DNA of 38,950 nucleotides from a bacterium (GTDB lineage: Bacteria > Verrucomicrobiota > Verrucomicrobiia > Verrucomicrobiales > Akkermansiaceae): positions 1 through 38,950 of the forward strand of contig JAAEZT010000030.1 in NCBI GenBank assembly GCA_018222765.1. Direction: 5' to 3'. Below the pieces are notes generated by a model. That model was given only the letters and a program-made list of their open reading frames with translations. It was not told the DNA's origin and ran no database searches. Shown here one piece after another: positions 20,277 through 35,968 of the stretch; within the stretch, counting starts at the first letter, position 1; each line of letters begins with the position of its first letter. The position numbers were made by a program, and so were the translations under genes.

Positions 20277-22862
20277 TTATCGATTCGAAAACGGTTCACT
20301 GGTTACAATTTTTTTGATCATGGCCCGAACCGGAAAATCATCAGGCTCCAATTCGTTTAATGACTTTTCGATCATTGGCAGATCGGTGAAACTCACGTCG
20401 CGACCCAAGGCATAGCATAACAGCCCTTCGAAGATCGAAGCTGCCACCGCCCTCTCCTCCTTCATCAGGGCCGCTTTGAGTCCATGCACATCTTTGAATG
20501 TCTCGCCATTGGGCAACTCTCCGCTGGCATCGACGGGATAGATTTTCTTAGGGCGGCGGGAAACTTGCTGAGCTTCCTGCGCTTCCGTGACCAGTTCCTC
20601 ATCCCGCCAAAGCCCGACGGCATCAAAGTTTTCCAATCCCAAGCCAATGAAATCGAAGCGCGCATGACAGGAGGCGCATTGCGCTTTGGTCTGATGCAGC
20701 TCGACCAAGGAGCGCACACTGGCCAAGGGATTCGCTCCGGCATCCAATTCAGGAACGTTCGGAGGAGGTGGCGGTGGCGGGTCATTGAGCAGGATCTCTT
20801 TCACCAACGAACCACGAATCACGGGAGACGTTCGATTTCCCATCGTGCCGGCCGACAAAAACGCGGACTGGGTCATCAATCCGCCGCGCGGTGACCCGGG
20901 TGGCAGCTGGAGCTTTTTAAAGGCATCACCAGCATAGATCTCCGCAAGGCCGTACTTCATCGCCAGCACCCCATTGACCATCACGAAATCAGAATCGATG
21001 AGATTGGCAGCGGACAGATTCTCCTTCACCAGCGTTTTGAAAAACTCAATCGGCTCCTGTCTCGCGGCTTGAATCATCCCGTCGGTGCGGTGCAGTAACA
21101 ACTTCGAGTTCAGAGTGAGCGAGTCGAATCGATCCAAGTGCGTCCATTGCGACATGAACCCTTTGAAGAATTGGTCCGCGAGGGGGCTGTCCAACATCCG
21201 GTCAAGCTGCTGCTCCAGAACCGCAGGTTTGAGAAGCTCACCGCCCTCAGCCAACTGCAACAGTTCTTTGTCAGGAGGGCTACTCCAGAGGAAATAGGAA
21301 AGGCGATTCGCCATGCTGACGGCATCGAGAGTTCTCTCCTTCGCCGCCTTCTCCCGGGGTTCCAGCAGGTAGAGAAAACGGGTGGATGTCAGGATCATCG
21401 CAAGCGGATCGACGATCGCCTCCCGGAAACTGAGTCCGGCTTTGCGCTTTTCTCGATAGAATCTGAAGAGCCTGTCTTGATAGCCCTCCGGAAGCCCGCG
21501 TTTACGAAACGCGATCTCGGCAAATTCAGCCAAGAATCGAGCAGCAACAGAATCGAACCCCTCGTCGGTCGCGGTCGCCAATTGATACTTCTCGACCAAT
21601 TTCTCAAAGGGCGACTTGGGATCGTAGAAGGGTCCTTCAACTTCCATCCACTTGGCAAAGATGGTGTCTTTCGGAGCTTCCGGCTCGATCGGCCGGTACT
21701 GATGATAGAACTGCTCGGAGCTTGGCCCACCGCGTTTATCCTCCAGCAAATAGAGGTGTCGCCTGGACTGGTGCCAGTGGTCCGGGCGAAAGTCAGGCTG
21801 AAACGCAGGGTAGTAAAGGGTTTCATGGGTCGAAGGTTCTTCAATCGTTCCTCGAATCCAAAAACTCCCGAATGCCCTTCCGTGCTTGCCGCCCAGTTTT
21901 CCGTTCTTCTCCATCAGGCGGACCCCGCGACGGATGTTGACACCATCGACCACGCCGCCGCAAAAACGAACGCGGTAGTGGGCCCGGGCATCCTGCCGAA
22001 CGAAGACGTTCACATGTTCCACCAGCAGATCATGCGACAACATGCGGCCCTTGGCATGGATGTGCAGGTTCCGCTCGTAGTATTCCCGCTGTCCCTTCCA
22101 AACACCATTTTTGGCATTCGGGCCATCCGTATCGTAGGTAGCCCATTCCTTATCGGTAAGTCCGGCTTCAGCAGGCGTTTTTCCCTGTTCCTTGACCAGC
22201 CTGACCTTCTCCATAATTTCGTAGATCCGCTTGCTCCGACCTTCCGTGTTGGCGAACTCCTTCCGCTCAAGCACTTTGGACTCCTGCCTCGGCTCACAGG
22301 CCCAATGCAATGCCGTGCGGGCGACTTCCCGGCCGTAAGCGAAATACTTCTCCAGCTCGATCGCACTCAGAGATTGGTTCTGGCCGATGGTGTCAAATCG
22401 TCCGCCGGGGTCATCGGGCAACTTGTCAGGCGAGAGCCGTATCCCCATGAGGTTCTTGATCGTCGCGGTGTATTCCCGCTGATTCAGACGTCTCAGAGCG
22501 ATTTCGCCACCGCTGTCCCGGAGTAACTTGTGAGCGGCCTGCAAGGCTTCCGTTAAATCCCCCACCACTCCGGCCAACTCATCCTTCGGCGGGCGCGGTT
22601 TCTTTTTTGGCGGCATTTCGCCCGCGTTGAGTTGGTCGAGGATGTCCTGCCAGTGCAGCGCATCTGTGCTGTTTCCAATTGAACGAGTTAATCCCTCGAG
22701 ATTGAGATCTGCTTTCGAAGTGGCCTCGTCATGGCAATCGTAACAATGCGTTTCGAAGAAGGGTTCGATCGACTTTGGAATGGGAATTCCAGTTTCATCG
22801 CCCAGCACCGGGCTAGTTAAGAGTCCGACAATGGGAAAGATTTTGGAGGCCGCCTTATTCAT
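20277..22862 (-). CDS. PSCyt1-PSD (DUF1587/1595/1592/1588/1585) haem protein, copy 2
   Basis: This 861-residue exported protein (signal about 1-21, KIFPIVGLLTSPVLGDE) has the same architecture as the copy at 15446. PSCyt1 carries CYDCH near residue 40, followed by LNAGEMPPKKKPRPP. DUF1587 has LRRLNQREYTATIKNLMG. A long beta-rich middle follows (HAHYRVRFCGGV-type segments, about 260-400). The DUF1595/1592 core has SMANRLSYFLWSSPPDKE, DUF1588 has the poly-Pro tract and the second haem motif CASCH in KAQCASCHARFDFIGLG, and DUF1585 is at the end. The start codon lies 8 bases inside the end of the FecR gene, which indicates tight coupling. Two CxxCH motifs suggest haem c and a periplasmic electron-transfer or oxidation role; the substrate is not known. 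Confidence 0.92.
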   Translation of the reverse strand: MNKAASKIFPIVGLLTSPVLGDETGIPIPKSIEPFFETHCYDCHDEATSKADLNLEGLTRSIGNSTDALHWQDILDQLNAGEMPPKKKPRPPKDELAGVVGDLTEALQAAHKLLRDSGGEIALRRLNQREYTATIKNLMGIRLSPDKLPDDPGGRFDTIGQNQSLSAIELEKYFAYGREVARTALHWACEPRQESKVLERKEFANTEGRSKRIYEIMEKVRLVKEQGKTPAEAGLTDKEWATYDTDGPNAKNGVWKGQREYYERNLHIHAKGRMLSHDLLVEHVNVFVRQDARAHYRVRFCGGVVDGVNIRRGVRLMEKNGKLGGKHGRAFGSFWIRGTIEEPSTHETLYYPAFQPDFRPDHWHQSRRHLYLLEDKRGGPSSEQFYHQYRPIEPEAPKDTIFAKWMEVEGPFYDPKSPFEKLVEKYQLATATDEGFDSVAARFLAEFAEIAFRKRGLPEGYQDRLFRFYREKRKAGLSFREAIVDPLAMILTSTRFLYLLEPREKAAKERTLDAVSMANRLSYFLWSSPPDKELLQLAEGGELLKPAVLEQQLDRMLDSPLADQFFKGFMSQWTHLDRFDSLTLNSKLLLHRTDGMIQAARQEPIEFFKTLVKENLSAANLIDSDFVMVNGVLAMKYGLAEIYAGDAFKKLQLPPGSPRGGLMTQSAFLSAGTMGNRTSPVIRGSLVKEILLNDPPPPPPPNVPELDAGANPLASVRSLVELHQTKAQCASCHARFDFIGLGLENFDAVGLWRDEELVTEAQEAQQVSRRPKKIYPVDASGELPNGETFKDVHGLKAALMKEERAVAASIFEGLLCYALGRDVSFTDLPMIEKSLNELEPDDFPVRAMIKKIVTSEPFSNR

Positions 22863-24384
22863 TCGTCACCTCCCAAATCGCTTCTTCCGAGACAGAAAAC
22901 GAGCCCAAAAGTTTCGTTTCCAATTGATGGCGCAAATTCTCCAGCTCAGCAATTTCCTCCTTGGAGAGAACCTCGGTCAGAAAGAGCGACCATCTTGGTT
23001 GGCCCCAATTTGTTTCCTCGTAAACCTCCCCTTCACGCTCGATGAGAAGCAACCCGGAGGTTTGGTGATTCATGATCTCTCCAAACACGAGATCCAACTG
23101 GACGCTGTCGCCCTCCAAATCGAACCACGGACCGCAGGCAAATCCGGCCATGGCATTCAAGCAGGGATACGAGGGATGGTTCGTGCGGGGAATCCCCAGC
23201 TCTTTGAAGGGAGAGTCGCGGCGCGAACCTTCGAAGACCGGCTTTCCATTGATCGCGACAAGCAGATGATTATCGGCATAACCCCAAAACCGATACCGTC
23301 CTTTCTTCGGCGGGCTAACTGTTCCCTGATACCAGGCAAGCCAACCAAACTCCCGCGAGTACGGGGCGAGGCCTGCCCGATCCGGGAATGTTTTGAAATT
23401 CCCCGCAATTCCGGAAAATCGCAGGGGCGAGCCTTCCTTCATCGCATCTAAACTTGCGCGGTCCGTGAAACCGGATTTCACAAGAGGGAGAATCTGACGC
23501 GCGATGACATCCTGATTCCGCTTTTGTCGCGGAATAACGGGTGAACCTTCGAAACCGAGAATTCTACCACGCAAAGACCTCGACTCTGGTGATCGCGATA
23601 TCGCCGTAAGCTCGGCAATATTAAGATGCATGTCAGAGAGCAGCTGGGTCTTTCCGTCCCGACTAAACTTGGCGAGATCGCCGGCAAACATCCGCTGTTC
23701 GTCCTTACCACTTTCTCCGTTGATGGCAATCTGGCCATCCAGCACGAGCACCCTCGAACCCGACTCGTTTGCCTTCACAACGAAACTCGTTCCCAGGTCG
23801 GTAATTTTTCGCTCGGGCGTATCAACGACGAATCCAATTCCTTGCGGAGGCACGACCAGCTTCATTTCTCCTTTGGAGAGGTTCACATGCATTGTGCTTT
23901 CCAAATCCAAGGACAGGGGAGCCGTGGCCAGGGCATGAACCCCGGAATCGCGGTAAGCCAACTCAACCAAGCCCGTGTCCATCGTAAGCTCATCGCCGGC
24001 AAACAGTTCGTCTCCGACCGCCAATCGCCGATCTCCATTCACCCGGCCCTCGCCTTCGACATGAATCACTCTTGCGACAAGCAATTTCGATTCGCGCGGA
24101 TTCCAATCCACGAAGAGAAAGAGCCCAAGCACCACCAAGGCCACGATGCCCGCTGCCATTGGCCAAAACCGCTTGATCGAGGGAATATCGGGCTCAACGG
24201 AGTCGGTCAGGAATTCTTCATCCGCGGCGAGCTGCTGCCACTTCGAATCAATCGTAGCCAATGTTCGCAGAGATCTGCGCGCCTCGGGGTCAGTTCGAAG
24301 CAGTTCCTCCAGAAGAGCAAACTCCTCAGATGAAATCGCGCCATCCAAATAACGATGCAGTAACTTTTCCTCGTCCCCTGTCAT
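22855..24384 (-). CDS. FecR-type anti-sigma-like membrane protein with C-terminal PA14-like ectodomain
   Basis: This 509-residue protein is arranged as a one-pass signal transducer. Residues 1-70 form a cytoplasmic anti-sigma-like segment (LLHRYLDGAISSEEFALLEE). One transmembrane helix lies at about 74-93 (WPMAAGIVALVVLGLFLFVD). A FecR domain follows at about 100-235, with the block TPERKITDLGTSFVV. At about 300-470 a PA14-like module contains GWLAWYQGTVSPPKKGRYRF, followed by GYADNHLLVAINGKPVF. PA14-type domains often bind glycans. The start overlaps the sigma gene stop by 4 bases (ATGA at 24384-24381). The likely role is to hold or activate the sigma factor in response to an extracellular ligand. 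Topology and domain order are well supported; glycan binding and the direction of regulation are inference. Confidence 0.83.
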   Translation of the reverse strand: MTGDEEKLLHRYLDGAISSEEFALLEELLRTDPEARRSLRTLATIDSKWQQLAADEEFLTDSVEPDIPSIKRFWPMAAGIVALVVLGLFLFVDWNPRESKLLVARVIHVEGEGRVNGDRRLAVGDELFAGDELTMDTGLVELAYRDSGVHALATAPLSLDLESTMHVNLSKGEMKLVVPPQGIGFVVDTPERKITDLGTSFVVKANESGSRVLVLDGQIAINGESGKDEQRMFAGDLAKFSRDGKTQLLSDMHLNIAELTAISRSPESRSLRGRILGFEGSPVIPRQKRNQDVIARQILPLVKSGFTDRASLDAMKEGSPLRFSGIAGNFKTFPDRAGLAPYSREFGWLAWYQGTVSPPKKGRYRFWGYADNHLLVAINGKPVFEGSRRDSPFKELGIPRTNHPSYPCLNAMAGFACGPWFDLEGDSVQLDLVFGEIMNHQTSGLLLIEREGEVYEETNWGQPRWSLFLTEVLSKEEIAELENLRHQLETKLLGSFSVSEEAIWEVTNE

Positions 24385-24929
24385 GATGTCTGGTTGATCG
24401 TTCGTTCAATGCAACGTTGCAATTCCCGCCGAATCCTTGCGAGGAGTTGATAAAGCGAACCCTCGCTCCGTCCCAGTTGGGCTGCCATTTCGCGAATCGA
24501 CTGATCCCGCCCATACGCTGCCAGCGCCAATTCCCGGCGCTCTTTCGGCAATCGCTGAATGCATCCCTCAAGCGCCTCCAACTGCCGGTTGCGCATCGGC
24601 AGCTCATCCGCCGCCTCGTCCGCGAGTAACTTCACGATATCCTCCGACAAGACCAGACGATCCCGCGCGAAACGTCGTCGGGTCATGAGCAACTCGTAGC
24701 GCGCAATCATGCAAGCCCATGCTCCAAACGCGTGATGATCGTCCAACGAAGAAAACTTGCGCCACGCCGCAATACTCACATCCTGCATCACCTCGTCGAC
24801 CTCCTGCGCGCGCGGACAGCACGACCGCACAAAGGCCCGCAGCTCCGGCTCATGATGCGTCCACAGCCGCAGAAACGCCTCATGGAAATCCATCAGATCG
24901 TTCGGATGTTGGGGATCTTCATCAGCCAT
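24381..24929 (-). CDS. ECF-like sigma factor, Rhodopirellula/Verrucomicrobium type, copy 1
   Basis: This 182-residue cytoplasmic protein shows region 2 in FVRSCCPRAQEVDEVMQDVS and the following AAWRKFSSL, and region 4 in ERRELALAAYGRDQSIREMA followed by QLGRSEGSLYQLLARIRREL, a helix-turn-helix. Length fits a two-region ECF sigma factor. Between the regions it has the signature ARDRLVLSE, also found in the paralogue at 33906. It is the first gene of a five-gene operon (24929 to 18050), with an anti-sigma-like partner directly behind it. In this family the sigma factor normally drives its own operon and related targets; autoregulation here is inferred. The promoter must lie in the 153 bases before 24929, after the sulfatase stop at 25083; none could be picked out. 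Confidence 0.9.
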   Translation of the reverse strand: MADEDPQHPNDLMDFHEAFLRLWTHHEPELRAFVRSCCPRAQEVDEVMQDVSIAAWRKFSSLDDHHAFGAWACMIARYELLMTRRRFARDRLVLSEDIVKLLADEAADELPMRNRQLEALEGCIQRLPKERRELALAAYGRDQSIREMAAQLGRSEGSLYQLLARIRRELQRCIERTINQTS

Positions 24930-25082: not shown

Positions 25083-26474
25083 CTACTTCGCGGGCCGCTT
25101 TTCGTAGGCATCTTCGTTCACCAGCCCCGGCTGCATCCTGGTCCACCATTGATCGTAAATCTTACGCAGTTGAGCCACGACTTCGGGATGTTCACCGATA
25201 ACATTTTTAGTTTCACCAGGGTCGTTCTTGAGGTCGAAAAGCTCCTCCCCTTTCTTGTTATTGACCAGAGTGAATCGTTTGTTCTGGATGGAAACTCTTT
25301 TGTATTTCGATTGGGCGGCCTCACCCGGCAACCAGGCACCGACGTGGTGCACCAAATGCCGGTCGTCCTCCCAATCGGTCTCGGGGTTCTTGAAAATGGG
25401 AACCAGACTTCGCCCCTCAACCTGTTGCTTGAGCTGATCGGTCATCGTGGTGCCGGTAAGTTCCAGGAGGGTCGGCATGATGTCCATCTGGCTGATGAGC
25501 GTTGCGCACTCTGAACCACCCTGAATGCCGCCGCCCGGCCATCTGATAAAAACAGGCACACGGGTACCGCCCTGGTACGGGTGTCCCTTTTGACCATTCA
25601 TCCCGGCATTGTAAATTTTTGAGGTTCCCGAAGCGCCATTGTCACTTCCAATGAAGATGAATAAAGTATTGTCCGCGATGCCCCATTCTTCGAGTTGCTG
25701 AATCAGCTCGCCGATACGTTTATCAATGTTTTCAACCTCCCAATAGATCTTCGCAACCTGTGTTGTCATGTCCGGATGGGACCCAAGGAATTTTTTATAA
25801 TCCTCATTGGGCATATCACTCGAATCCTCTTTGTAAGGGCCGTGGGGCGATTTGGGTGGGAGATAAACGAAAAAGGGTTTCTTTGCCTGACGTTGAACGT
25901 CCATCCATTCGGTCGCTTTCTCGAAAAATAAATCAGTAGGGTAGGTGCCATCCATTCTCTGCGGTTTTTCATTGTGAGAAATGGTGGCTTTCATTCTTGA
26001 GCCCTTTTCGTACATCCAGCACTCATCAAACCCGCGATTCTCGGGACGGTAAGGCCCTTCATTGCCATTGTGCCACTTGCCGAAAAAACCCGTGGCATAC
26101 CCGGCTGTTTTGAGAGCTTGCGACAGCGTGATCGTATCCAGACTCAAGCGCTCGCGCCCTTGGATGGTATGGGTCACACCGCCCAAAAACTCATGGCGGC
26201 CACTCAGGAGTTTCGCACGGCTGGGGGAACACCGTGCACTGGAATGATACCGCGTTAAGAGCAGACTTTCTTTTTTAAGGGCGTCAATATTGGGGGTTTT
26301 GATGATGGGATTTCCTAAGCAGGTATAATTCCCATAGCTGGAATCATCCGGCATGATCACGATGATGTTCGGTTTCGATCCCGCGGGTTTGGAATCCGGC
26401 TCTGCGGATGCGACCGTAGCGTTCGCGAGGATGGCTGCCGTGATCAGCAGAAGAGGTAAGAATGGGGATTTCAT
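25083..26474 (-). CDS. Secreted type-I (formylglycine) sulfatase, copy 2
   Basis: This 463-residue protein has a signal peptide (FLPLLLITAAILANATVASA). The catalytic features are the metal residues Asp43-Asp44 in NIIVIMPDDSSYG, and CSPSR at 82-86, where Cys82 would become formylglycine. They continue with FGKWHNG, GSDNGASGTS and GTRVPVFIRWPGGG. The C-terminal part, GEELFDLKNDPGETKNV, is typical for arylsulfatase-like enzymes. Sequence details differ clearly from the sulfatase at 12593, so substrates may differ. It sits 153 bases upstream of the sigma factor gene on the same strand, so read-through into that operon is possible. Substrate cannot be assigned; the presence of two sulfatases fits use of sulfated marine polysaccharides. 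Confidence 0.92.
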   Translation of the reverse strand: MKSPFLPLLLITAAILANATVASAEPDSKPAGSKPNIIVIMPDDSSYGNYTCLGNPIIKTPNIDALKKESLLLTRYHSSARCSPSRAKLLSGRHEFLGGVTHTIQGRERLSLDTITLSQALKTAGYATGFFGKWHNGNEGPYRPENRGFDECWMYEKGSRMKATISHNEKPQRMDGTYPTDLFFEKATEWMDVQRQAKKPFFVYLPPKSPHGPYKEDSSDMPNEDYKKFLGSHPDMTTQVAKIYWEVENIDKRIGELIQQLEEWGIADNTLFIFIGSDNGASGTSKIYNAGMNGQKGHPYQGGTRVPVFIRWPGGGIQGGSECATLISQMDIMPTLLELTGTTMTDQLKQQVEGRSLVPIFKNPETDWEDDRHLVHHVGAWLPGEAAQSKYKRVSIQNKRFTLVNNKKGEELFDLKNDPGETKNVIGEHPEVVAQLRKIYDQWWTRMQPGLVNEDAYEKRPAK

Positions 26475-26562: not shown

Positions 26563-27504
26563 TTACTGAGAGCTCTGCGTCCGCAAGAACATTCTTGGTT
26601 CGGTGAAGGTCATCTGAACGACCGCGTCACCATTGCTGTCAGTGGTTAGGATGTGCTCGTCGAGCCCTCCAATCGTACCTGGATCGCCTGGATCACCTTG
26701 GGTCAGATGCAAGACAGTTGTTCCCGGATTGAACTCCAAGGATACCGAGGAGCGGAGTTCATAGGCGGTGTTGCTCTTTCCTTCGAGCGTCAGTTCGTAG
26801 ACGTTACCACTGATTCGTCGAAACGAAGTGATCTCCAGGAAGCTTCCAGGAACGGGAGCGTCATCGAGAACGAACGAGAAGTCCCTCTCGGGCTCCGTTT
26901 GGAACGGGTTTGCAGCCGCAAAGTCCAGACGTGCGGCGCCATAAGCCCCCGTAATAGAGTCGAAGCGCCAAAAGAACTCGCCGTCATTGCTGCTCCCAGA
27001 ATCGGCCAACACCGAAAACCAGACCTGCGTTCCTCCAGGCAGATTCGTCGGGGGTACGTTTGCCTCGAACACATAAATGTCTTCCTCCTCGGGATCTCCA
27101 CCGAAGTTTTCTCCTGTGTCGACAATCTCTGTAAAGGTGACCCTAGTGGAGCTTAGGATATTTCCCTGGTCCGGCAGCTCACCAGAATCCGCGTAAAAGA
27201 TGATGTCGAATGATATGGGAGTAGTGGGTACATCGTTGTCGTCGAAATACCCCCACCATTTTACGCTGCGGACGGTTACTGGAGAAGCCAGAGTCAAGTT
27301 GTCGGCCGCTTGCGCGCCCCTGTTAGAAAGACCGTTAACATCTGATATGGTGCCGGCGTCTGAAGAACTGGGATTAGCGACCCGCTGTGAGAAAACGGGT
27401 GCAGCCAGGGAAACTCCAGGCAATGCGATTGCTACAAAGAGCCCACTCAAGAAGGTGCGAATCAGGCTTACGTTGAGAAGAGAGGATGTGGGAAAGCGTT
27501 TCAT
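26563..27504 (-). CDS. Secreted protein of unknown function, beta-rich
   Basis: I do not recognise this 313-residue protein. It has an N-terminal signal peptide (about 1-34, ending SLAAP), then a beta-rich body with acidic and Gly/Ser-rich loops (NLTLASPVTVRSVKWWGYFD, then FWRFDSITGAYGAARLDFA). The body resembles surface proteins with a repeated choice-of-anchor type fold. The tail, TFTEPRMFLRTQSSQ, resembles the short C-terminal ending common in secreted verrucomicrobial proteins, but it is not a PEP-CTERM signal. It lies 88 bases upstream of the sulfatase at 25083 on the same strand, so both may share a transcript. A role in surface attachment or glycan binding is possible but not shown by the sequence. 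Confidence 0.7.
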   Translation of the reverse strand: MKRFPTSSLLNVSLIRTFLSGLFVAIALPGVSLAAPVFSQRVANPSSSDAGTISDVNGLSNRGAQAADNLTLASPVTVRSVKWWGYFDDNDVPTTPISFDIIFYADSGELPDQGNILSSTRVTFTEIVDTGENFGGDPEEEDIYVFEANVPPTNLPGGTQVWFSVLADSGSSNDGEFFWRFDSITGAYGAARLDFAAANPFQTEPERDFSFVLDDAPVPGSFLEITSFRRISGNVYELTLEGKSNTAYELRSSVSLEFNPGTTVLHLTQGDPGDPGTIGGLDEHILTTDSNGDAVVQMTFTEPRMFLRTQSSQ

Positions 27505-27603: not shown

Positions 27604-27726
27604 CATCTGTGCTCATCCGTGAAAATCTATGTTCCAAAATTTCCAACACAGATTCGCTTCGCTCGACACAGATGAACACGAATTAACACGAATGGGCTTC
27701 GCCCTTAATTTACATCTGCGGTTCAT
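27604..27726. repeat. Intergenic element with a 10-base period and an internal inverted arrangement
   Basis: CATCTGTG (27604-27611), CATCCGTG (27614-27621) and AATCTATG (27624-27631) repeat every 10 bases. The opposite orientation follows with CACAGATT (27647-27654), CACAGATG (27667-27674), CACGAATT (27677-27684) and CACGAATG (27687-27694), also on a 10-base grid. A GGGCTTCGCCC hairpin (27694-27704) and a further unit CATCTGCG (27713-27720) complete it. The last unit runs into the stop codon of the beta-helix gene at 27723. Similar CATCTGTG-type tracts occur between genes of many environmental bacteria, so this may be a mobile interspersed repeat. Its function is unknown. Confidence 0.7.
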
Positions 27727-30578
27727 TCCTGAGCCACCGGTGCCGCAATCACGACCATTCCCAGCAGCGGCGACGCGCCTTCCACCTCGATGCGGAGGTC
27801 GACGCCTTCACTTGATCCAAAGTTGGCGTCGCTGACTCGGAAGCGATGTTCTTTCCAGAAGGGTTTGTTTTTCAGTTCAAAGTCGACGGTGTCGCCGAGC
27901 TTTATGCCAGCCTGCCCTTGGTAGTAAGTCTTGATATTGCAGTGGTCTTCGATCCGGAAATAGAGCGTAATTTCGACTTCCTTGATCGCCCCGTTCTGAA
28001 ACCCGGGATCGGTCACCTTCAACTCGAAACTGTTGCCCTCCACCAAACGCGCGGACGGCAACCGACGCCCATCCTGCGAGTCCTTGGCCAAGCCCGAGTT
28101 CGGGACGATCAAGGCGTCCTCCATGCGCAGGTTGCTCATGTCCAACTCCAGTCCGTATCCCTTGGGGAACGGCTGGTTCGCATCGGCGAGGATATAGACT
28201 GTCTCGATGGGATTCCCGGGCTGGAATTCTGCGGCAGCGGAGCGCAAAAACCCTTTCGCGAAATGAAAGTCCTCAAAGGATACCTGTCCCTCGTTCTCGA
28301 ATCCGAGGTGATGCGAACCCGCTCCGCCCGACTGCACCGTAATCCTAGCGCCTTTTCCACAATGGATGCTGTTCGCTCCCCGGTTGCTCGGTCCGGTAAT
28401 CGACGTTTGTTGACCGAAGAAAAGTCCGCCCTGAATGTCCCAGGTTTTATCCGACGTCCCCATCGCAAGACAGCAATAGAATCGGGCTTCTCCAGCGAAA
28501 CTCGGATACGTCCTGATGCCGTAAGTCCCATCGCGCCCGCCGATGTGATTGATGTTGCAGGTGGACGAGATGATGTCGAAAGACTTTGCCCCATTTTTGA
28601 ACGCGTAACCTTGTTGAAGCTGCTCACCGCCAACCATCAGGGCTTGGCCGCTGGAATCGTCGACGGTCATGAAGGTGTGCGAAGCATGGTTGAAAATGCT
28701 CATCACGACATAGTTGTCGCAGCCGTTGAGATAGATGGGCTCGTAGGCCTCATTCACCCTGAATTTGAACTCCTCCAACGCTGACGTCTTTGGGCTACTG
28801 GGAAGCCACGCATTCCGCCAGAAATCAGGCTTGATGTGACAGTTCTGGATCCGCCCTCCGGAAGAGTGGTTCGCCCGGTAGGTGGCCCGAAGTCCACCGA
28901 TGAAGGAATACTCCACGAGGTGGTGATCACCATTGAGCTCCAGTCCCAGCCAGGGATTCGAAGCCGAGCAGTCGATGACGTAGTTCCCCTCTCCATTGGC
29001 TCGCACCATCCAGGGATACTTTTTGAAGTTCTTGTATTCCTGGTTCGGGTAATAGAAGCCGATCCCGCGCAATCCGCTACCGTCCCCGAGGGTGAGAAAC
29101 GGCGTTCCATTTTCATCCCCCTCGCCCGTCTCGATGAACAAAGCACTGCCCAATTGCTCTTTGGGCTTGTTGCCCAGGACATGACGCCCCCCGCTGTTGC
29201 CTCGAAGCTCCACTCCCTCACCCAGGTTCAACGCTTCGGTGATCCGATATTCACCATCGGGCACGAACACGATCCCACCATCGTTGGCGGAAGCCGCCTC
29301 GATCGCTTTCTTCAAAGCCGCTGTGTCATCGGCTTTTCGATCGCCAACCGCTCCGTAGTCCTGGACGTTGAACAGATCAGATTTCGCCGGCTTGCGGGTT
29401 CGGTCGTAGGTGTTATTGAAAGTCGGCAGCTTCTCGTCATAATGATGCTCGCGATACACCGTTCGGCGACCGAGAATCTCCGTCTTCCCCTTGACGGTGC
29501 AGTTCACGAGTTCGGCGACTCCATTTCGAATCGAGATCGAACGTTTCCCTCCTTCAATGCTGGTGGTGTGCATTTTGTAGTGGGTGCGGTCCTTACCCCA
29601 GATTCCGTATTCAGATCCCTGCAAGGTACTCCCCACGATTCGGAAGCCTTTCGCGTCGTCTACATGGAGTGCAGTGTCGCAATCCGTAACGGAGAAATAG
29701 GACAGCTCTCCGCTGGCATCATCCCCTGAAACGCCGCGCTCGAAGTGGAGTCCTTTCTGATACCCGGAGACGGTAGAAAAACCGGCATAGAATCCATCCA
29801 TTTCGTATATGTGTAGACCGGTTCCGTGCTGGCGCATGTAGGCGGCATGCACACCGCCTTCGGGAGGACTGCCCGGCAGCTGCGACCAAGTCCAGTAGTC
29901 AGGTGAAAAGTGGATGGTATCGTAGCGTGAAACGGCAAAGCTTCGATCGGCCGAAAGCCCGGTGTGAAGTGGGCTGCCGTAGATACCACGCAAGCAGCAG
30001 GTGCTCGCCTGAGAGAGATCGATGCCGCGCCCGGGATTGATGAGATTGATATTCTCGATCGTTACCACCGAGGCTTGCCCCCGGATCACCAAAGGGGACT
30101 CTGCTAACGAATTTGAACCCGTTGAGTACGAGACCTGCTGTTCGGGATGCCAGAAGGTCAGGTCTCTCACCCCACAACCACTGCCTTTGATCAGCACACT
30201 CTGTTCGTGCTCCTGGTTGTGAATCATCAGGATCGTCCCCTGAGCTGGGCGGTCCGGACTGATTTGACTCCAGCGACCGCGAAGAAAAACGTTCGAGGCA
30301 ATCGTCAGCATACCCTCCAATCGGTATCGGCCCTCCGGCAGGAAAACCGTACCGCCCCCGGCCGCGCTGGCGTCGTCGATAGCCTTTTGAATGGCGGGTG
30401 TGCAGTCGGCAGTGGCAGGATCGTCCGGCAGGTCGTATGCCGCGTCAGTCAACGAGCAGAACGCGACGATCACGTCATCTGTCGGAAATTTGGGATCATC
30501 AGCAATCACCCGCCACCTCTCGTCGCTCATGGCCGGAGTGGTGAGAAGACAGCCACATAGAGCAAAGAGCATTTTCAT
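27723..30578 (-). CDS. Secreted tandem beta-helix protein, pectate-lyase-3/GH55-like
   Basis: This 951-residue protein has a signal peptide (MLFALCGCLLTTPAMSDE). It holds two copies of a right-handed beta-helix start unit. The first, at about 66-100, has AIDDASAAGGGTVFLPEGRY; the second, at about 425-460, has AIEAASANDGGIVFVPDGEY, preceded by FNVQDYGAVGDRKADDTAA. Each is followed by a helix body with repeated short strands. Paired beta-helices are typical of GH55 exo-beta-1,3-glucanases and of related pectate-lyase-3 proteins; which applies cannot be read. The C-terminal 150 residues form a beta-sandwich-like tail. The gene is the last of the sigma-led operon, 9 bases behind the glycoside hydrolase at 30588. 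Polysaccharide cleavage is the likely role. Confidence 0.8.
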   Translation of the reverse strand: MKMLFALCGCLLTTPAMSDERWRVIADDPKFPTDDVIVAFCSLTDAAYDLPDDPATADCTPAIQKAIDDASAAGGGTVFLPEGRYRLEGMLTIASNVFLRGRWSQISPDRPAQGTILMIHNQEHEQSVLIKGSGCGVRDLTFWHPEQQVSYSTGSNSLAESPLVIRGQASVVTIENINLINPGRGIDLSQASTCCLRGIYGSPLHTGLSADRSFAVSRYDTIHFSPDYWTWSQLPGSPPEGGVHAAYMRQHGTGLHIYEMDGFYAGFSTVSGYQKGLHFERGVSGDDASGELSYFSVTDCDTALHVDDAKGFRIVGSTLQGSEYGIWGKDRTHYKMHTTSIEGGKRSISIRNGVAELVNCTVKGKTEILGRRTVYREHHYDEKLPTFNNTYDRTRKPAKSDLFNVQDYGAVGDRKADDTAALKKAIEAASANDGGIVFVPDGEYRITEALNLGEGVELRGNSGGRHVLGNKPKEQLGSALFIETGEGDENGTPFLTLGDGSGLRGIGFYYPNQEYKNFKKYPWMVRANGEGNYVIDCSASNPWLGLELNGDHHLVEYSFIGGLRATYRANHSSGGRIQNCHIKPDFWRNAWLPSSPKTSALEEFKFRVNEAYEPIYLNGCDNYVVMSIFNHASHTFMTVDDSSGQALMVGGEQLQQGYAFKNGAKSFDIISSTCNINHIGGRDGTYGIRTYPSFAGEARFYCCLAMGTSDKTWDIQGGLFFGQQTSITGPSNRGANSIHCGKGARITVQSGGAGSHHLGFENEGQVSFEDFHFAKGFLRSAAAEFQPGNPIETVYILADANQPFPKGYGLELDMSNLRMEDALIVPNSGLAKDSQDGRRLPSARLVEGNSFELKVTDPGFQNGAIKEVEITLYFRIEDHCNIKTYYQGQAGIKLGDTVDFELKNKPFWKEHRFRVSDANFGSSEGVDLRIEVEGASPLLGMVVIAAPVAQE

Positions 30579-30587
30579 CGATCTGAG

Positions 30588-32162
30588 TTATTCAAAAGTT
30601 GCGATCAGTTGATCGAGCTTGGGGAGCACTTCCTGATCTTCCGGCGAGACGAGTTTCACCTCGATCTGAAACCCTTTTCCGGCCGGCAGATCGGCGAACG
30701 ATGCCTTCGCCGGCGTGCGAGCGACCTGTTTCGCGAAGCCGGGAACCAACGAGTAAGTCTCCCGGGAATCCTGCCACTCGGACCACTGATCGATCTGGCC
30801 ATCGCCATCCTGATCGACTCCCGCTCTCATCTTGGCCGTTCCGACCCAGGGACCGTCACTGACGAAGTCGGTCTCGGTCTGGGTAATCAGGTAGAACTTG
30901 CCGTCGGCGAACATGATATCGGGATCCGGATGCCCCGAGCCGATGTGTCCGTAAAAGCGGAACGGTTGGTTAATATTTTCTGAGGTGAAAAGCCCGACGC
31001 TCATCCCCGCCCGATCATGGGCACCGGCCGGATCGTAGTCGCCCACCAGGTAATACTGTCCCCCGATCGCGATGGCCGCCCAGTCGCCGAAGGCGTCTTG
31101 TTCGGGCTCGTGGATCTCATAGGTCACCACCTTTTCTTCACCCTTCCAATGGGGGTGCTCAAAGGTGCCCGTCTTCCCCGTCGGCTTGGTGCGATAGTCG
31201 ACGGCCGGCTCGAGAATCTGAAAGTCCGTAATACCAGTCTCGCTCACCATGTGACTGGCCAGGGGGGAATCCCAGGAGCGTTTGGAGGCATCGATGGGCT
31301 GCCAGTTCTCCGAGATCATGTGGAACTTGCCCTCGAGGTCGCGAATCACACCGACGTCAGACCCTCCCCAGGGCGCGTCGAAAGCGAGGCCTTTGTCTTC
31401 TCCCGGGATACCATCGCGTAGGTCGCTATCGATGATGAGATGCGGGTCACGGTCGTTGGGCCGGTCATAGTAGAAGTAGGTTTTCCCATCGGCGTATTCC
31501 GCCGTGGTCACCGTTGGCGCGGCCGCGGTCGGCCCGTAGTGGACCCAGTGGATCATGTCGCGGCTGTGCCAGGCGTGGTAACCACTTTTCCAGGCTCGTT
31601 TAAGTGGGGGCTTACTGTAATCGCCTTTCCATTCACTGGGTTGATACTGATTCGGGAAGGGTGTAGTCACTAGTTTATCGTCATATCCCTTGAGGGTGAC
31701 TTCTTCCTCCACGAATCCTTCGAGCGAGAAGCCAAGCGGCGCAGGCGGCTTCCGGTTCTTTTTCTTAGCGTCTGCGACTTTAGCTTGATAGGCATCCACG
31801 AGTTGCTCGCCTGACCGGTACTGAGCGATTATCCAATGATCATTGGGACCATGACTGATCAGCACCGGGGCGTTCTTCATGTTGGGCTGGTAGAGTTTAT
31901 GAGGCTGCCAGTTCATCCACTCCACGCTTTGCCTTAGCTCAACATCCTGCAGTCGGGTCGGGTCGGAAAATGTTTTCAACTGACTGGAGAAAGACACCTC
32001 TGGCTTCTCAGCAGCGGCATGACCGTCCGCGATCTTGATACCGTTGGTGTCGGCGATAAATGCCTGCCAATCCTCAGTCGTTGAGATTTGCCACTGAGGT
32101 TGACGATCATCGGCGAATAAACTGGAAGTGAGCAAACAAGCCCATAGCAATTTGAATTTCAT
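30588..32162 (-). CDS. Secreted beta-propeller glycoside hydrolase, GH43/GH117-like
   Basis: The start is set at ATG 32162, giving 524 residues with a signal peptide (MKFKLLWACLLTSSLFADD). The open frame extends 94 codons upstream into the SASA gene but without secretion features. Features of a five-bladed beta-propeller glycosidase are visible: AWHSRDMIHWVHYGP, FDAPWGGSDVGVIRD with acidic residues, FGDWAAIAIGGQYYLVGDYD, and GHPDPDIMFADGKFYLITQT. These repeats of strand-plus-Trp/Asp fit GH43-, GH32- or GH117-like enzymes that release arabinose, fructose or anhydro-galactose residues. Family and substrate cannot be fixed further by eye. It is the fourth gene of the sigma-led operon, 37 bases after the SASA esterase gene. 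Confidence 0.78.
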   Translation of the reverse strand: MKFKLLWACLLTSSLFADDRQPQWQISTTEDWQAFIADTNGIKIADGHAAAEKPEVSFSSQLKTFSDPTRLQDVELRQSVEWMNWQPHKLYQPNMKNAPVLISHGPNDHWIIAQYRSGEQLVDAYQAKVADAKKKNRKPPAPLGFSLEGFVEEEVTLKGYDDKLVTTPFPNQYQPSEWKGDYSKPPLKRAWKSGYHAWHSRDMIHWVHYGPTAAAPTVTTAEYADGKTYFYYDRPNDRDPHLIIDSDLRDGIPGEDKGLAFDAPWGGSDVGVIRDLEGKFHMISENWQPIDASKRSWDSPLASHMVSETGITDFQILEPAVDYRTKPTGKTGTFEHPHWKGEEKVVTYEIHEPEQDAFGDWAAIAIGGQYYLVGDYDPAGAHDRAGMSVGLFTSENINQPFRFYGHIGSGHPDPDIMFADGKFYLITQTETDFVSDGPWVGTAKMRAGVDQDGDGQIDQWSEWQDSRETYSLVPGFAKQVARTPAKASFADLPAGKGFQIEVKLVSPEDQEVLPKLDQLIATFE

Positions 32163-32199
32163 GTATTGATCTGATTGTAGCTTCCACTGCCGATCGAAG

Positions 32200-32952
32200 C
32201 TACGGTCTGCCGTCTTCAGCGGGCTTTTCTCCCTTGATAAGCGCATAGCCCTGGCGGGCAAAACGCTGCCCGAGAATGATGTAACCCTCCGGCCTGTTGT
32301 AGTGAACTGCGTTGCTGACCTTCCCATCCTTTTCTCGATCATTAAGATCATCCACGTCGACCCAGGCACCACTAGGATCTTCATCGACAATTTCCATCTG
32401 GATCTTTCGCATTGCCCCCCAACTTGGTTTCTTTTGACCAGCATCGCTCAGGCGGCCGATGACAATGTTCATGTCCGGGCGCTCCAGATCACGGCGCAGC
32501 TTTGAAATCAAAAGCTTTAAGGAATCTTTATAGGCAGGCTGTCCGCCGCCGTTGGCATCACGTTCTCCCTGCATCCAGCAAAACGTGACGGACTCAAACT
32601 TAGGATGTTTCTTCAGCATCCCTTTGTATTGATCGAGAATAGGTTGATAAAACTCAACCTTTCCGCCCTTGTGAATCCTCTTTATGTGTCCCTCATCAAG
32701 TCCATTCTTTTTGGCAATACCCTGCCATTCTTCGAGCCACCTGCATATGGGCTGACCACCTTTTGCCACTTTGATATAAACGACCTTTTCATCCTTAAAC
32801 TGTTTCTTCGCCTCCGTCATGAACCCGGTCTCCGGATCCATCCCCGCCATGTTCGATTGCCCGGATAGGATAAAGAGATGAACGGGTTTCTCTGCCACGG
32901 ATTCAGAAGCAAATATGGCTGTGAGAGCGAATAATAGTAAAAAGGGCTTCAT
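32200..32952 (-). CDS. Secreted SASA/DUF303 carbohydrate esterase, short form
   Basis: This 250-residue protein has a signal peptide (MKPFLLLFALTAIFASESVA). The nucleophile block is FILSGQSNMAG with Ser33, the second block is FCWMQGERDA, and the catalytic pair is placed near Asp202 and His217 in NAVHYN. It is the single-domain SGNH-like type (CE6-related), in contrast to the long form at 8420. Such enzymes remove acetyl groups from xylan or similar polymers. It is the third gene of the sigma-led operon, 37 bases from the anti-sigma-like gene and 37 bases from the next gene, so it belongs to the same transcript. Substrate is inferred from family only. Confidence 0.87.
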   Translation of the reverse strand: MKPFLLLFALTAIFASESVAEKPVHLFILSGQSNMAGMDPETGFMTEAKKQFKDEKVVYIKVAKGGQPICRWLEEWQGIAKKNGLDEGHIKRIHKGGKVEFYQPILDQYKGMLKKHPKFESVTFCWMQGERDANGGGQPAYKDSLKLLISKLRRDLERPDMNIVIGRLSDAGQKKPSWGAMRKIQMEIVDEDPSGAWVDVDDLNDREKDGKVSNAVHYNRPEGYIILGQRFARQGYALIKGEKPAEDGRP

Positions 32953-32989
32953 TTAGATAGTAACGGGTTATGGAGCGATAGGTTTAAGG

Positions 32990-33913
32990 TTAATTGGGTT
33001 TGGCTGGCGGCTTACAGGTGTCAACCAACTGCACTTGAACGGCATCGAGGTATAAGTCAGGCACGGACATCTCAGGATTGAGATGCCAGACTCCCAACGC
33101 AACCATGATACTACGGGTCCCTTCAGGGATTTCGAGCGAGGCGCTGACTTCATGCCAATTGCCTTGTTCGTCTTTCTCAGGAAGGTGCTTTCGCTCCACT
33201 CCCTGCAGGATCATGGCGTCAGAATTCCATCGGTCTGTCCAAGCCTGTCTGACGTCTTCAGGCGCTTGACCGAATGCCACTATTCTCACGTGGAATCCTG
33301 GGTTTTGCCCCGTAAAGGGAGCCATAAAAGAACCCTTTACCCTCAGACTTCTCACATACCCCGACTCCAAATCCGGATAGTCGTGTAAATCCACTATTCG
33401 GCTGAGAGATTCTGACCGATTGCCAGCTTTCGGAGTAAGGCGTCCCATTCGCTTACCTTCAAAAGCCGAAATACCGCCTTTGGGCGTCACCGAAACCAAA
33501 CGTCCACACCACTCATTTGCTTTTACCGGGAGATGTGTCGGCAGCTCTATATCTGAATCCTCAAAGCCCTCAGAGACAATCTCCTGGCTCGTCCTGGTAA
33601 TCTCCCCGCCGCGGGGCACGACATAGGCCCATACCACCGAAGCGCTAAACAGCCCGATCAGAAGCCCAGCTGCAGAACCCGGATTGATCCAGGCAAAATG
33701 GCTTTTAAGCGGACGGCTGATTTCTTTTTTTACCAGTGTTAATTGCTCCGCCTGTTCCCGAAGGTGACTATCGACACGGCTCGCAGCCAGAAAGGTCTGT
33801 CGTAGCTCCTCATCTGTCTTGAGCAGGGCTTCCAGCTGTTCGACATCGACCTCGTCGGCCATGCCTGTCAGGTAACGATCAATGAGGTCCTCGTGTTCCG
33901 TTGATTTATTCAT
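32990..33913 (-). CDS. Anti-sigma-like membrane protein with lectin-like C-terminal ectodomain
   Basis: This 307-residue protein has a cytoplasmic N-terminal segment (LIDRYLTGMADEVDVEQLEA), similar in layout to the FecR protein at 22855. One transmembrane helix lies at about 78-98 (PGSAAGLLIGLFSASVVWAY). An outside domain at about 110-300 resembles galactose-binding or CBM-like jelly rolls (GFEDSDIELP, then GNWHEVSASLEIPEGTR and DLYLDAVQVQLVD). No FecR domain is visible. The gene overlaps the sigma factor stop by 8 bases, so the two are made together. The layout suggests it binds the sigma factor inside and a ligand, possibly a sugar, outside. Ligand binding is inference; the topology is clear. 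Confidence 0.78.
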   Translation of the reverse strand: MNKSTEHEDLIDRYLTGMADEVDVEQLEALLKTDEELRQTFLAASRVDSHLREQAEQLTLVKKEISRPLKSHFAWINPGSAAGLLIGLFSASVVWAYVVPRGGEITRTSQEIVSEGFEDSDIELPTHLPVKANEWCGRLVSVTPKGGISAFEGKRMGRLTPKAGNRSESLSRIVDLHDYPDLESGYVRSLRVKGSFMAPFTGQNPGFHVRIVAFGQAPEDVRQAWTDRWNSDAMILQGVERKHLPEKDEQGNWHEVSASLEIPEGTRSIMVALGVWHLNPEMSVPDLYLDAVQVQLVDTCKPPAKPN

Positions 33914-34445
33914 GGTTTCCTCCCTGGGTTTGTAGTTCGCGGTAAACGCACTCTCGAAGCGACGCCCGCAGACGCCCGATGAGTTTGTAGAGACTGTTGG
34001 CCGTCCGGTTGGTGGCTTCGGCGAGCTCCTTTACGCCTCCGTCCCGCATGCTGGCGGCAAACACGAGCTGACGCTGTTCGTCGCCCATTTTCTTAAGACA
34101 GCAATTCAGGGCCTCTCTTTCCTTCTCAAGTTCATCCCCCGTGGTGGGCATGGCCTCATTGGCGAGCAGTTCCAACAATTCTTCGCTTAAGACGAGTCGA
34201 TCCCGGGCCGCTTTGCGCCGTGCTCTCAAGGCCTCGTAGCGAACAATGACCCGAGCCCACGTGAAAAAGCCCTCCTCCTGCTGCAACTGGTGCAGCTTCT
34301 TCCACATTACGACGCTTGCTTCCTGGAGCACGTCATCCACCGCAGGCCAGTTCGGAAGCAGCGAGCGTGCAAAGACCCGCAAATCCCGTTCGTGGCGCAC
34401 GAACAAGCGCATAAAATCTGACTGGTCTATCGGTCCGTATGACAT
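33906..34445 (-). CDS. ECF-like sigma factor, Rhodopirellula/Verrucomicrobium type, copy 2
   Basis: The start is placed at ATG 34445 (MSYGPIDQSDFMRLF), giving 179 residues. An upstream in-frame ATG at 34487 adds 14 residues without homology to the paralogue. Region 2 is seen in FARSLLPNWPAVDDVLQEAS and region 4 in FAASMRDGGVKELAEATNRT followed by ANSLYKLIGRLRASLRE. It shares the middle signature ARDRLVLSE and LLELLANEA with the sigma factor at 24381, so the two are paralogues. It leads a second operon (34445 to 27723) that contains an anti-sigma-like gene and three carbohydrate-active genes. The promoter would lie in the 229 bases before it; no box was convincing. Regulation of its own operon is inferred from the arrangement. 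Confidence 0.9.
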   Translation of the reverse strand: MSYGPIDQSDFMRLFVRHERDLRVFARSLLPNWPAVDDVLQEASVVMWKKLHQLQQEEGFFTWARVIVRYEALRARRKAARDRLVLSEELLELLANEAMPTTGDELEKEREALNCCLKKMGDEQRQLVFAASMRDGGVKELAEATNRTANSLYKLIGRLRASLRECVYRELQTQGGNHE

Positions 34446-34674
34446 ACGTGTTACCCATAGACTTCCGTATTCAACCCGACCTGCCAAAGTTTTTTCCCAA
34501 AACTCTGGCAGGGCACATCCTATTCAGCATTTTTCCCTTTTCGCTTCTCCAAGATACTCATCATAGAATCTCCCGAAATGATCAACAGAAACGGTTCGCC
34601 GATAACGATCGCAGACGTTTTCGATCAACTTCCCTGGGTCTGTCCAAGGAAGCCGAAATCAAGGCACCACGACC

Positions 34675-35922
34675 TCAGTCGAACATTTCCAGTATGGGCT
34701 TCCCTCTTGTCCCACCCACGTGAAAGGGACGTCCGGTCGCGGTGAGGAACGGCTTCTCGCGAGGGATGCCAGCGGCGTGTGCGATAGTGGCATGAAAGTC
34801 CCCCACGGTGTGTGGCACATCGGGTGTCGCGCCGCGTTCATCACTTTCTCCGAGCACAAAGCCTCGTTTCACTCCAGCACCGGCAAGACCAACGGTGAAG
34901 CAAAGCGGGTAGTGTCCACGCCCCGCTCCACTGTAATCCGGCTTACGCCCGAACTCAGTTGCCAACACCACCAGCGTCGAGTCGAGCATACCCGAACCTT
35001 CAAGATCGCGAATGAGGGCCGCGTAACCTTGGTCAAAGGAAGGAGCAATGTCGCTCATGTCTCCCTTGATATCCTGATGCATGTCCCAACCATCGCTGGT
35101 CACCTCGACGAAGCGTACCCCGGCCTCGACCAGCTGCTTCGCTAACAGACAACCCTGACCAAACTTGGAGTCGCCATAGAGCTCGCGCGTCGCCTTGTCG
35201 GCCTGCCCCAGGTCGAAGGCCTTGAGATCCTTGCTTCGCAGCAGGCGTAGGGTTTCATCGTAAAAGTCACGATAGGCGCCGACATTGCTATCCTGATATT
35301 TTGCGACAAACCTTTCACTGAGGGTATTCGCCAGTTCGAGCTTCGATTTCAGGCGCCGCGGCCCACCATCGATGTCTAGATTTTCCAATCCAGCTGACGG
35401 TTCGAGAATGGGGATGGGGCTGTAGGTCGGCGCGAAGAAACCATTGCCGTAGCGCGGTGGTTCATTGATGCAGGCCGAGCTAGGCAAGGTATCATGGCTG
35501 GCTCCGAGGTAGTGCTGCGCCCAGGCCCCGAGGTTGGGATGCTTGATTGTGTTGCGTTCGGCAAAAGCCGTGCGCATAAAATACTGGGCCGGTCCGTGCA
35601 CGCCAATCTTGGCAGTCATCGTGCGAATCAGGGAGATGCGATCCGCCACCTTGGCAGTTTCAGGCAAGTATTCCGTCACCTGATAATCCGCGGAGGTTTT
35701 AATCACATCGGCTGGTCCCTTGGCTTTACCCTTTTTGGGGTCGAAGGTGTCGATGTGGCTCATGCCTCCCTTGACATTGATGAAGATGATCCGCTTGGCG
35801 GAACCGAATCCGGCCAGGCCCTGGGTCGATTCCAATTGATACCCGCGGGCTAATTGAGGAAAAACCGAGAGGCCGAAGGCGGTTTTTGCCGCTCGCTCGA
35901 TAAAGTGTCGTCGATGGATCAT
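34675..35922 (-). CDS. DUF1501 exported protein
   Basis: This 415-residue protein has a twin-arginine-like start (HRRHFIERAAKTAFGLSVFP). Family blocks are GGMSHIDTFDPKKGKAKGP near residue 55, GYGNGFFAPTY-like segments in the centre (PPRYGNGFFAPTYSPIP), VEVTSDGWDMHQDIKGDM, and TLVVLATEFGRKPDYSGAG near the end. DUF1501 proteins are a branch of the alkaline-phosphatase-like superfamily and are commonly encoded next to DUF1549/DUF1553 haem proteins, as here (46 bases upstream). No reaction is established. It is the last gene of its group; the sigma factor gene at 34445 starts a new unit. Length and architecture are ordinary. Confidence 0.92.
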   Translation of the reverse strand: MIHRRHFIERAAKTAFGLSVFPQLARGYQLESTQGLAGFGSAKRIIFINVKGGMSHIDTFDPKKGKAKGPADVIKTSADYQVTEYLPETAKVADRISLIRTMTAKIGVHGPAQYFMRTAFAERNTIKHPNLGAWAQHYLGASHDTLPSSACINEPPRYGNGFFAPTYSPIPILEPSAGLENLDIDGGPRRLKSKLELANTLSERFVAKYQDSNVGAYRDFYDETLRLLRSKDLKAFDLGQADKATRELYGDSKFGQGCLLAKQLVEAGVRFVEVTSDGWDMHQDIKGDMSDIAPSFDQGYAALIRDLEGSGMLDSTLVVLATEFGRKPDYSGAGRGHYPLCFTVGLAGAGVKRGFVLGESDERGATPDVPHTVGDFHATIAHAAGIPREKPFLTATGRPFHVGGTRGKPILEMFD

Positions 35923-35968
35923 GAGTTTAAGTGATTAGGTGAAAGCAAATGTTTGAATGAGTCCCGGC

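Follow-up and report, generated by a model that had tools for sequence, protein, structure and literature searches.

The focal operon and its gene families

In a bacterium of the Akkermansiaceae (Verrucomicrobiota; assembly GCA_018222765.1), a sigma factor and an anti-sigma factor stand at the head of a five-gene operon (27723-34445, minus strand), and it is this operon – above all its anti-sigma factor – that is considered here. The stretch analysed, referred to as the window, is one entire contig (JAAEZT010000030.1, or C76; 38,950 nucleotides, ending at 38950), which also holds a second sigma-led operon (20277-24929, minus strand). The genes of the focal operon, all on the minus strand, are as follows:

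33906..34445, minus strand: extracytoplasmic function (ECF)-type sigma factor, TIGR02989 (Sig-70_gvs1) at 161 bits against a cut-off of 124.55; ATG at 34445
32990..33913, minus strand: anti-sigma factor of 307 residues, overlapping the sigma gene by 8 bases; placed in a 31-member alignment
32200..32952, minus strand: SASA-type carbohydrate esterase with a signal peptide, PF03629 at 82.4 bits (cut-off 24.8), after a gap of 37 bases
30588..32162, minus strand: GH43-like secreted protein, likely a glycosidase, PF04616 at 26.4 bits (cut-off 32.2), after a gap of 37 bases
27723..30578, minus strand: tandem pectate-lyase-like beta-helix protein, PF12708 in two stretches, after a gap of 9 bases

An earlier reading of this DNA, made from its letters alone (the sequence-only reading), had described the same gene order, overlap and gaps, and all of these hold, as do the SASA esterase and the tandem beta-helix protein. 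The two sigma factors of the window, which it had regarded as paralogues, both carry the motif ARDRLVLSE and both exceed the TIGR02989 cut-off. What it had called a beta-propeller glycosidase keeps that name only as a likely one: the PF04616 match is weak and below the cut-off both in the window and in the related locus L040 (26.8 bits), and no PDB sequence matched the protein at E values up to 1. Its start was taken as the ATG at the signal peptide (the longest frame would extend to 32444); a model predicted from 4 sequences has a mean predicted local distance difference test score (pLDDT) of 42, and no fold search was based on it. Plasmids contained no match to this protein.

An anti-sigma factor with a predicted carbohydrate-binding fold

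The anti-sigma gene (32990-33913) matches no Pfam (E up to 0.01) or NCBIfam family, and hence has no FecR domain, and none of the carbohydrate-binding module (CBM) families of Pfam was found in any of the 31 anti-sigma relatives at E up to 0.1. A literature search, with most subscription papers outside its reach, turned up no report of this anti-sigma family. The predicted model (mean pLDDT 81.9) comprises three helices at residues 3-65, an uncertain stretch at 66-101 and a jelly-roll at 107-300, which gives the following division of the gene:

33719..33913, minus strand: cytoplasmic part, residues 1-65, three helices in the model; proposed sigma-binding domain (ASD)
33617..33673, minus strand: single hydrophobic (transmembrane) segment, approximately residues 81-99, from hydropathy and conservation; low pLDDT in the model
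33014..33595, minus strand: extracytoplasmic jelly-roll of CBM-like fold, residues 107-300, from the model, Foldseek and VIA-align; proposed glycan sensor

Residues 1-65 probably bind the sigma factor, as suggested by their position and by their agreement with the sigma factor across relatives. Few alignment columns are invariant or nearly so among the 31 relatives, and several of these fall in the membrane segment (A81, A82, G83, G87, S92, V94 and A96).

The outer half is predicted to be a CBM-like jelly-roll. Against solved structures, the model aligns with CBM4, CBM16, CBM22 and CBM61 modules at Z scores of 11.3-12.3, with 137-150 residues aligned. The CBM61 and CBM22 matches range from Z 12.0 to 12.3, among them 2xom (CBM61; Z 12.3, 138 aligned residues, root-mean-square deviation 3.0) and 1dyo (CBM22; Z 12.1, 143 aligned residues, root-mean-square deviation 3.2). 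Also among the best solved matches are an endo-arabinanase module, HpiC1-type cyclases, the Fbs sugar-binding domain, CBM16 and CBM4 (Z 11.2-11.5), and a Foldseek search agrees with VIA-align.

Two known types of anti-sigma factor invite comparison. The N-terminal domain of RsgI proteins is a Pfam domain; the anti-sigma factor has no Pfam match to it (E up to 0.01), and nothing so named was found in the 31 relatives (E up to 0.1). The other RsgI trait – one membrane helix followed by a domain of carbohydrate-binding fold – is present by prediction. RsgI proteins of Clostridium thermocellum bear such domains as sensors, and the SigI/RsgI likeness extends to the single-pass anti-sigma factor with a divergent, often carbohydrate-binding, C-terminal domain and to the existence of several paralogues, each reading different substrates (PMC12203970). 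The systems differ in that the sigma factor here belongs to TIGR02989, the envelope is Gram-negative and sugar binding is predicted from the fold alone. Because its outer half is predicted to be CBM-like and it has no FecR domain, the protein has in RsgI a closer working analogue than in the FecR of Bacteroidetes.

The sequence-only reading had seen here an analogue of the Bacteroidetes polysaccharide utilisation loci, but without SusC/SusD-type transporters in view. The first part stands insofar as a sigma and an anti-sigma factor – which control such loci in Bacteroidetes – lie ahead of secreted, carbohydrate-type enzymes; it is not borne out by the anti-sigma factor, which has a predicted CBM-like jelly-roll instead of FecR. 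As for transporters, SusD (PF07980) has no match in the genome (97.8% complete; a Bacteroides control was detected), and of the five TonB plug domains in the genome none is on contig C76, SusC itself not having been searched with a model of its own. Signalling in the Bacteroidetes manner, from a TonB-dependent transducer in the outer membrane to a FecR-type anti-sigma factor, could draw on those five plug domains and on the FecR domain in the anti-sigma factor of the second operon; the focal anti-sigma factor, however, has no such domain, and the absence of SusD from the genome and of a plug domain from the contig makes a direct sensor likelier, leaving the transducer very improbable. FecR-containing anti-sigma factors of the same kind of genome share with the focal protein its position, N-terminal part and one hydrophobic segment, and differ in having a periplasmic half outside the jelly-roll family.

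A partly conserved cassette in relatives

Matches to the anti-sigma family occur in 11 of 195 genomes of the Akkermansiaceae, the bacterium's own included: full-length relatives (30-36% identity) in 6 of the 194 others, and a shorter or weaker match in 4. One scan with the anti-sigma factor yielded 36 loci (designated, like all loci compared here, by L numbers), comprising 34 labelled as Verrucomicrobiota, one as Planctomycetota and one as Boseongicola.

Several of these loci repeat the focal gene order and extend it to a sulfatase, in the order sigma factor, anti-sigma factor, SASA, GH43-like protein, sulfatase. This order is found in L037, from the single cell AG-430-C07 (anti-sigma 34%, SASA 90%, GH43-like 78% and sulfatase 35% identical to those of the window), and in L040 (anti-sigma 29%, SASA 67%, GH43-like 41%, sulfatase 83%, then another SASA at 87%). 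In L038, two further genes are interposed: the pair is followed by a 1480-residue protein, SASA (88% DNA match), the GH43-like protein (77%), a 222-residue frame and the sulfatase (84%). In L041 (1927-4032), SASA and a sulfatase (66%) are fused in one open frame of 701 residues, and in L043, of the same sensor family, an alginate lyase (204 bits) and sulfatases come after the pair. The GH43-like family is itself scattered, with matches (E up to 1e-60) in 17 of 387 genomes of the phylum and 10 of 198 genera. By sequence comparison, the recurrence of the five genes together is more than chance would give.

The window has its own sulfatase, beyond the coordinates of the focal operon:

26563..27504, minus strand: protein between the beta-helix gene and the sulfatase, with no Pfam or NCBIfam family
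25083..26474, minus strand: sulfatase, PF00884 at 186.6 bits

With 137 sulfatase-domain matches in the genome, a sulfatase nearby would mean little on its own; its identity of 83-84% in two related clusters (L040 and L038), however, assigns this one to the cassette, as judged by sequence. The beta-helix gene, by the same kind of evidence, is an addition in the window's genome outside the recurring set, having a single distant relative (31-34%) among the 194 other family genomes. The search for the same operon in other Verrucomicrobiota that had been proposed earlier thus found the order conserved in part, and the beta-helix protein gives up its place as the third enzyme of the set to a sulfatase that the sequence-only reading had left unmentioned.

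Downstream genes and the reading of the locus

Pairs of loci were compared for a shared downstream gene (40% identity or more), the gene chain of the focal operon being set by hand from the gene list after the automatic chain rule had missed it. Two loci had been entered twice, L039 also as L101 and L040 also as L107; the counts of shared genes are given without these duplicates, with the full counts in brackets, whereas the totals of 111 and 107 loci and 5886 pairs cited below include them. A downstream gene is common to 43 of 56 pairs alike in both sensor and sigma factor (44/57) and to both of the two pairs alike in the sensor only (2/2 either way), compared with 2 of 20 pairs alike in the sigma factor only (2/21) and 16 of 2328 alike in neither (16/2392). 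In these counts, which come from non-independent pairs, the genes downstream go with the sensor half more than with the sigma factor. Linkage may explain this: on the DNA the sensor part lies closer to the enzymes, and that alone could yield the association.

The genes directly after the pair are varied. For this sensor family (27 scanned, overlaps included), they are DUF7133 proteins (6), SASA (5), GDSL lipases (5), PSCyt1 (4), 3-keto-disaccharide hydrolases (2), an alginate lyase (1) and a sulfatase (1). Behind pairs that lack this sensor (44 of the 48 first genes scanned, three others being cut by region ends and one short), they are PSCyt1 (16), PSCyt2 (14), PSD1 (13), sulfatase (6), and GH20, GH25 and 3-keto-disaccharide hydrolase (one each). 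Taken as a rule for this kind of sigma factor, the earlier idea that it feeds carbohydrate-active enzymes is too narrow, PSCyt1, a Planctomycete-type cytochrome, being the commonest first gene (16/44), and the mixture makes carbohydrate enzymes one of several outputs. This sensor occurs in 45 of the 111 anti-sigma factors, which is not a frequency, 36 loci having been fetched by the sensor itself; in the survey of the window's own genome and genus it occurs in 9 of 73.

On balance, and with modest confidence, the focal locus is best read as a sigma-controlled glycan-enzyme operon with a CBM-like sensor on its anti-sigma factor; gene order, gene families and partial conservation of the cassette are observed, and the fold is predicted. 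Several observations weigh against this. The first genes after this sensor family are mixed, as just described; among close relatives of the pair, L034 leads a cytochrome operon and L033 (1879-3334) and L035 (9460-10915) have no downstream operon that could be found; and SASA, mostly with the GH43-like protein and the sulfatase, also lies behind anti-sigma factors that are just ~30% alike (L037, L040 and L041), so that there is no strict pairing of a sensor with its enzymes. On the structural side, the top match of the jelly-roll is a phage baseplate protein (Z 12.6), and the fold is common to proteins without known sugar binding, such as the HpiC1-type cyclases, which means that it fits sugar binding without proving it.

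Two other explanations build on these observations. The anti-sigma factor might sense the cell envelope – the cell's own exopolymer, a surface protein or the state of secretion – with the enzymes remodelling the envelope rather than serving feeding; jelly-rolls bind many ligands, and the genes following this kind of sigma factor are often Planctomycete-type cytochromes, DUF7133 proteins and GDSL lipases, not glycosidases. The recurring cassette of esterase, GH43-like protein and sulfatase, together with the alginate lyase of L043, argues against envelope sensing, which we consider unlikely. Alternatively, the sigma pair and the enzymes could be mere neighbours with no regulatory link, the targets of the sigma factor lying elsewhere, as the pairs of L033, L035 and L034 and the presence of the cassette behind different pairs would allow. 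This is rather less likely still, given the short gaps between the genes and the recurrence in other genomes; the gaps also contain no minus-strand terminator-like site, although the scan as a whole finds no more such sites than in shuffled sequence.

Apparent exchange within anti-sigma genes

Four features of the window, three of them in its second operon, bear on such exchange:

33585..33615, strand not applicable: point in the focal anti-sigma gene where likeness to L032 changes over, with DNA identity (windows of 60 bases) rising from 0.6-0.7 to 0.90-0.95
24381..24929, minus strand: paralogous sigma factor of the second operon, TIGR02989 at 162.7 bits
22855..24384, minus strand: anti-sigma factor of the second operon, with a FecR domain and a weak PA14 match; likeness to L085 changes over inside the gene
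20277..22862, minus strand: Planctomycete-type cytochrome (PSCyt1/PSD2-5/PSCyt3, by family matches), led by the second sigma factor

L032, found in the scan with the sensor family, is 88% identical in DNA to window positions 33600-32200. Its sigma factor and N-terminal part have no match to the focal operon and match the window's second operon instead (24235-24890, 68% DNA identity; sigma factor 70%): likeness to the second operon is 0.67 for the sigma factor and 0.55 for the ASD, and likeness to the focal operon is 0.88 for the sensor. The change-over lies at ~33600, directly behind the membrane segment, and in 60-base windows the identity then stays at 0.87 to 1.00 until ~32600 before dropping to 0.65-0.85 within the SASA gene – a profile that would be expected of a recombined tract. 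The second case, L085, comes from the genus survey of the sigma factor (64 of 66 above-cut-off matches from other genomes fetched, the other two lying at contig ends). Relative to this locus of the same genus, the second operon has an outer anti-sigma part at 0.91 and a cytochrome 98% identical over 226 residues, with the sigma factor at 0.29 and the ASD at 0.27; the DNA match starts at 24078 and climbs steeply around 23900, in or near the FecR domain and ~70 codons behind the membrane segment.

By these alignments, both operons of the window show a break inside the anti-sigma gene at which likeness to one relative changes over, which suggests that the sensing and sigma-holding parts of such anti-sigma factors have been exchanged between operons. 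Mis-assembly of metagenome contigs might mimic such exchange: L032 is a contig of 3251 bases from a metagenome-assembled genome labelled Boseongicola, L085 comes from a 7164-base contig, and clear cases are limited to these two. That the cases are separate, that both anti-sigma factors are in frame with a 4-base overlap with the sigma gene and that the sigma factor and ASD of L032 agree with each other makes this explanation improbable.

How general the exchange might be is another matter. Among 5886 pairs (those with a sensor part below 80 residues excluded), sensors above 0.6 go with sigma factors below 0.5 in just 2, out of 118 with sensors above 0.6 (2/115 without duplicates); these are the L032 and L085 cases, and such exchange is either rare or soon blurred. 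Of 107 loci, 56 have the same best partner for sigma factor and ASD, and 51 of 107 for sigma factor and sensor; together with the 2 in 118, these counts weaken the case for free exchange as the general rule. Rank correlations over 38 dereplicated entries (from 42, near-identical ones removed; no permutation test) are 0.43 for sigma factor and ASD and 0.22 for sigma factor and sensor, with partial values of 0.40 and 0.16. In a weaker third pattern, which may be an old divergence, the sensors of L046, L050 and L053 are 0.46-0.52 like those of several freshwater-type loci (L051, L054, L056, L057, L059-L061 and L063 in the pairs listed), at sigma likenesses of 0.20-0.23.

The sigma factor, its leader and the genome

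The genome (4.33 Mb in 87 contigs) encodes eight TIGR02989 sigma factors above the cut-off and two slightly under it. The 111 loci hold 113 sigma genes of this kind, of which 111 precede an open reading frame in the anti-sigma position, the other two being at contig ends, and 107 of these 111 frames hold a 19-residue stretch with a mean hydropathy of at least 1.5. TIGR02989 sigma factors are known from Rhodopirellula and Verrucomicrobium; both window sigma factors are members and do not differ from them, and the unusual part of the present system is the anti-sigma factor and the exchange, not the sigma factor. Ahead of the sigma gene lies one further feature:

34446..34502, minus strand: conserved leader before the sigma ATG, a possible promoter region, with 44-46 of 57 bases identical in L033, L034 and L035

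In these three relatives the leader is non-coding, with an in-frame TAG four codons ahead of the ATG. In the window this TAG is TGG, which gives a TTG-started frame to 34487 that is probably not the true start, because of the TAG at that place in the relatives. No -35 and -10 elements could be assigned; the sigma-70 and terminator scan was at chance level. Some 230 bases ahead of the sigma gene, on the same strand (34675-37984, minus), lie a DUF1501 gene and, upstream of it, a gene for a 671-residue protein with no NCBIfam match.

A proposed mechanism and its possible substrates

In the glycan-sensing reading, the N-terminal helices of the anti-sigma factor would hold the TIGR02989 sigma factor at the membrane, with the CBM-like outer domain contacting a polysaccharide – perhaps sulfated and acylated – or one of its breakdown products. 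The anti-sigma factor would then be inactivated, probably by proteolysis in or near the membrane helix; a member of the site-2 protease family, which this genome shares with all 14 control genomes, could fit this step. The freed sigma factor may transcribe its own operon, and with it the putative SASA, GH43-like and beta-helix enzymes and perhaps the sulfatase; the conserved non-coding leader would fit such a promoter of its own.

Hints at a substrate were sought in nine fetched loci with GH43-like relatives, three of which were scanned with Pfam (ten proteins). The scan found GH29, GH95, GH28 and a sulfatase in L164, GH29, a GH141 insertion domain and a sulfatase in L168, and GH95 in L162. 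In L164 (4487-17739), which is from another family, the GH43-like gene stands in the GH29/GH95/GH28/sulfatase cluster, which a sigma gene and an anti-sigma-like gene follow. Fucoidan was rejected as a substrate since the window's genome has no GH29 or GH95 match, and for this reason no substrate is named. An AlgE-like epimerase was likewise rejected for the beta-helix protein, as the match covers just ~54 residues of a motif common to many such proteins.

Possible implications for glycan sensing in Verrucomicrobiota

With its 137 sulfatase matches and no SusD, the genome raises the question of how such bacteria choose their enzymes for a glycan. In Pontiella agarivorans, a related bacterium of the PVC group, sulfatase and glycosidase genes likewise adjoin, and its authors, in the accessible part of their paper, point to nearby two-component systems and TonB-dependent transporters rather than to a sigma factor (PMC10880615). 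The present locus joins a known sigma family to an unnamed anti-sigma family, with evidence of module exchange. We infer that the sigma factor and its binding domain form one exchangeable module, and the sensor and enzymes another. More broadly, and tentatively – the idea could well be right, although we hold it less firmly than the reading of the locus itself – glycan sensing in Verrucomicrobiota may be plug-and-play, with sigma factor and binding domain as one module, CBM-fold ectodomain and enzymes as another, and in-frame recombination in the anti-sigma gene re-wiring which sigma factor is paired with which glycan, as the traces in both operons of the window would reflect. An anti-sigma family with no Pfam name and a predicted CBM-like outer domain is a concrete candidate for a sensor, and its natural chimeras mark the cut points for domain-swap reporters.

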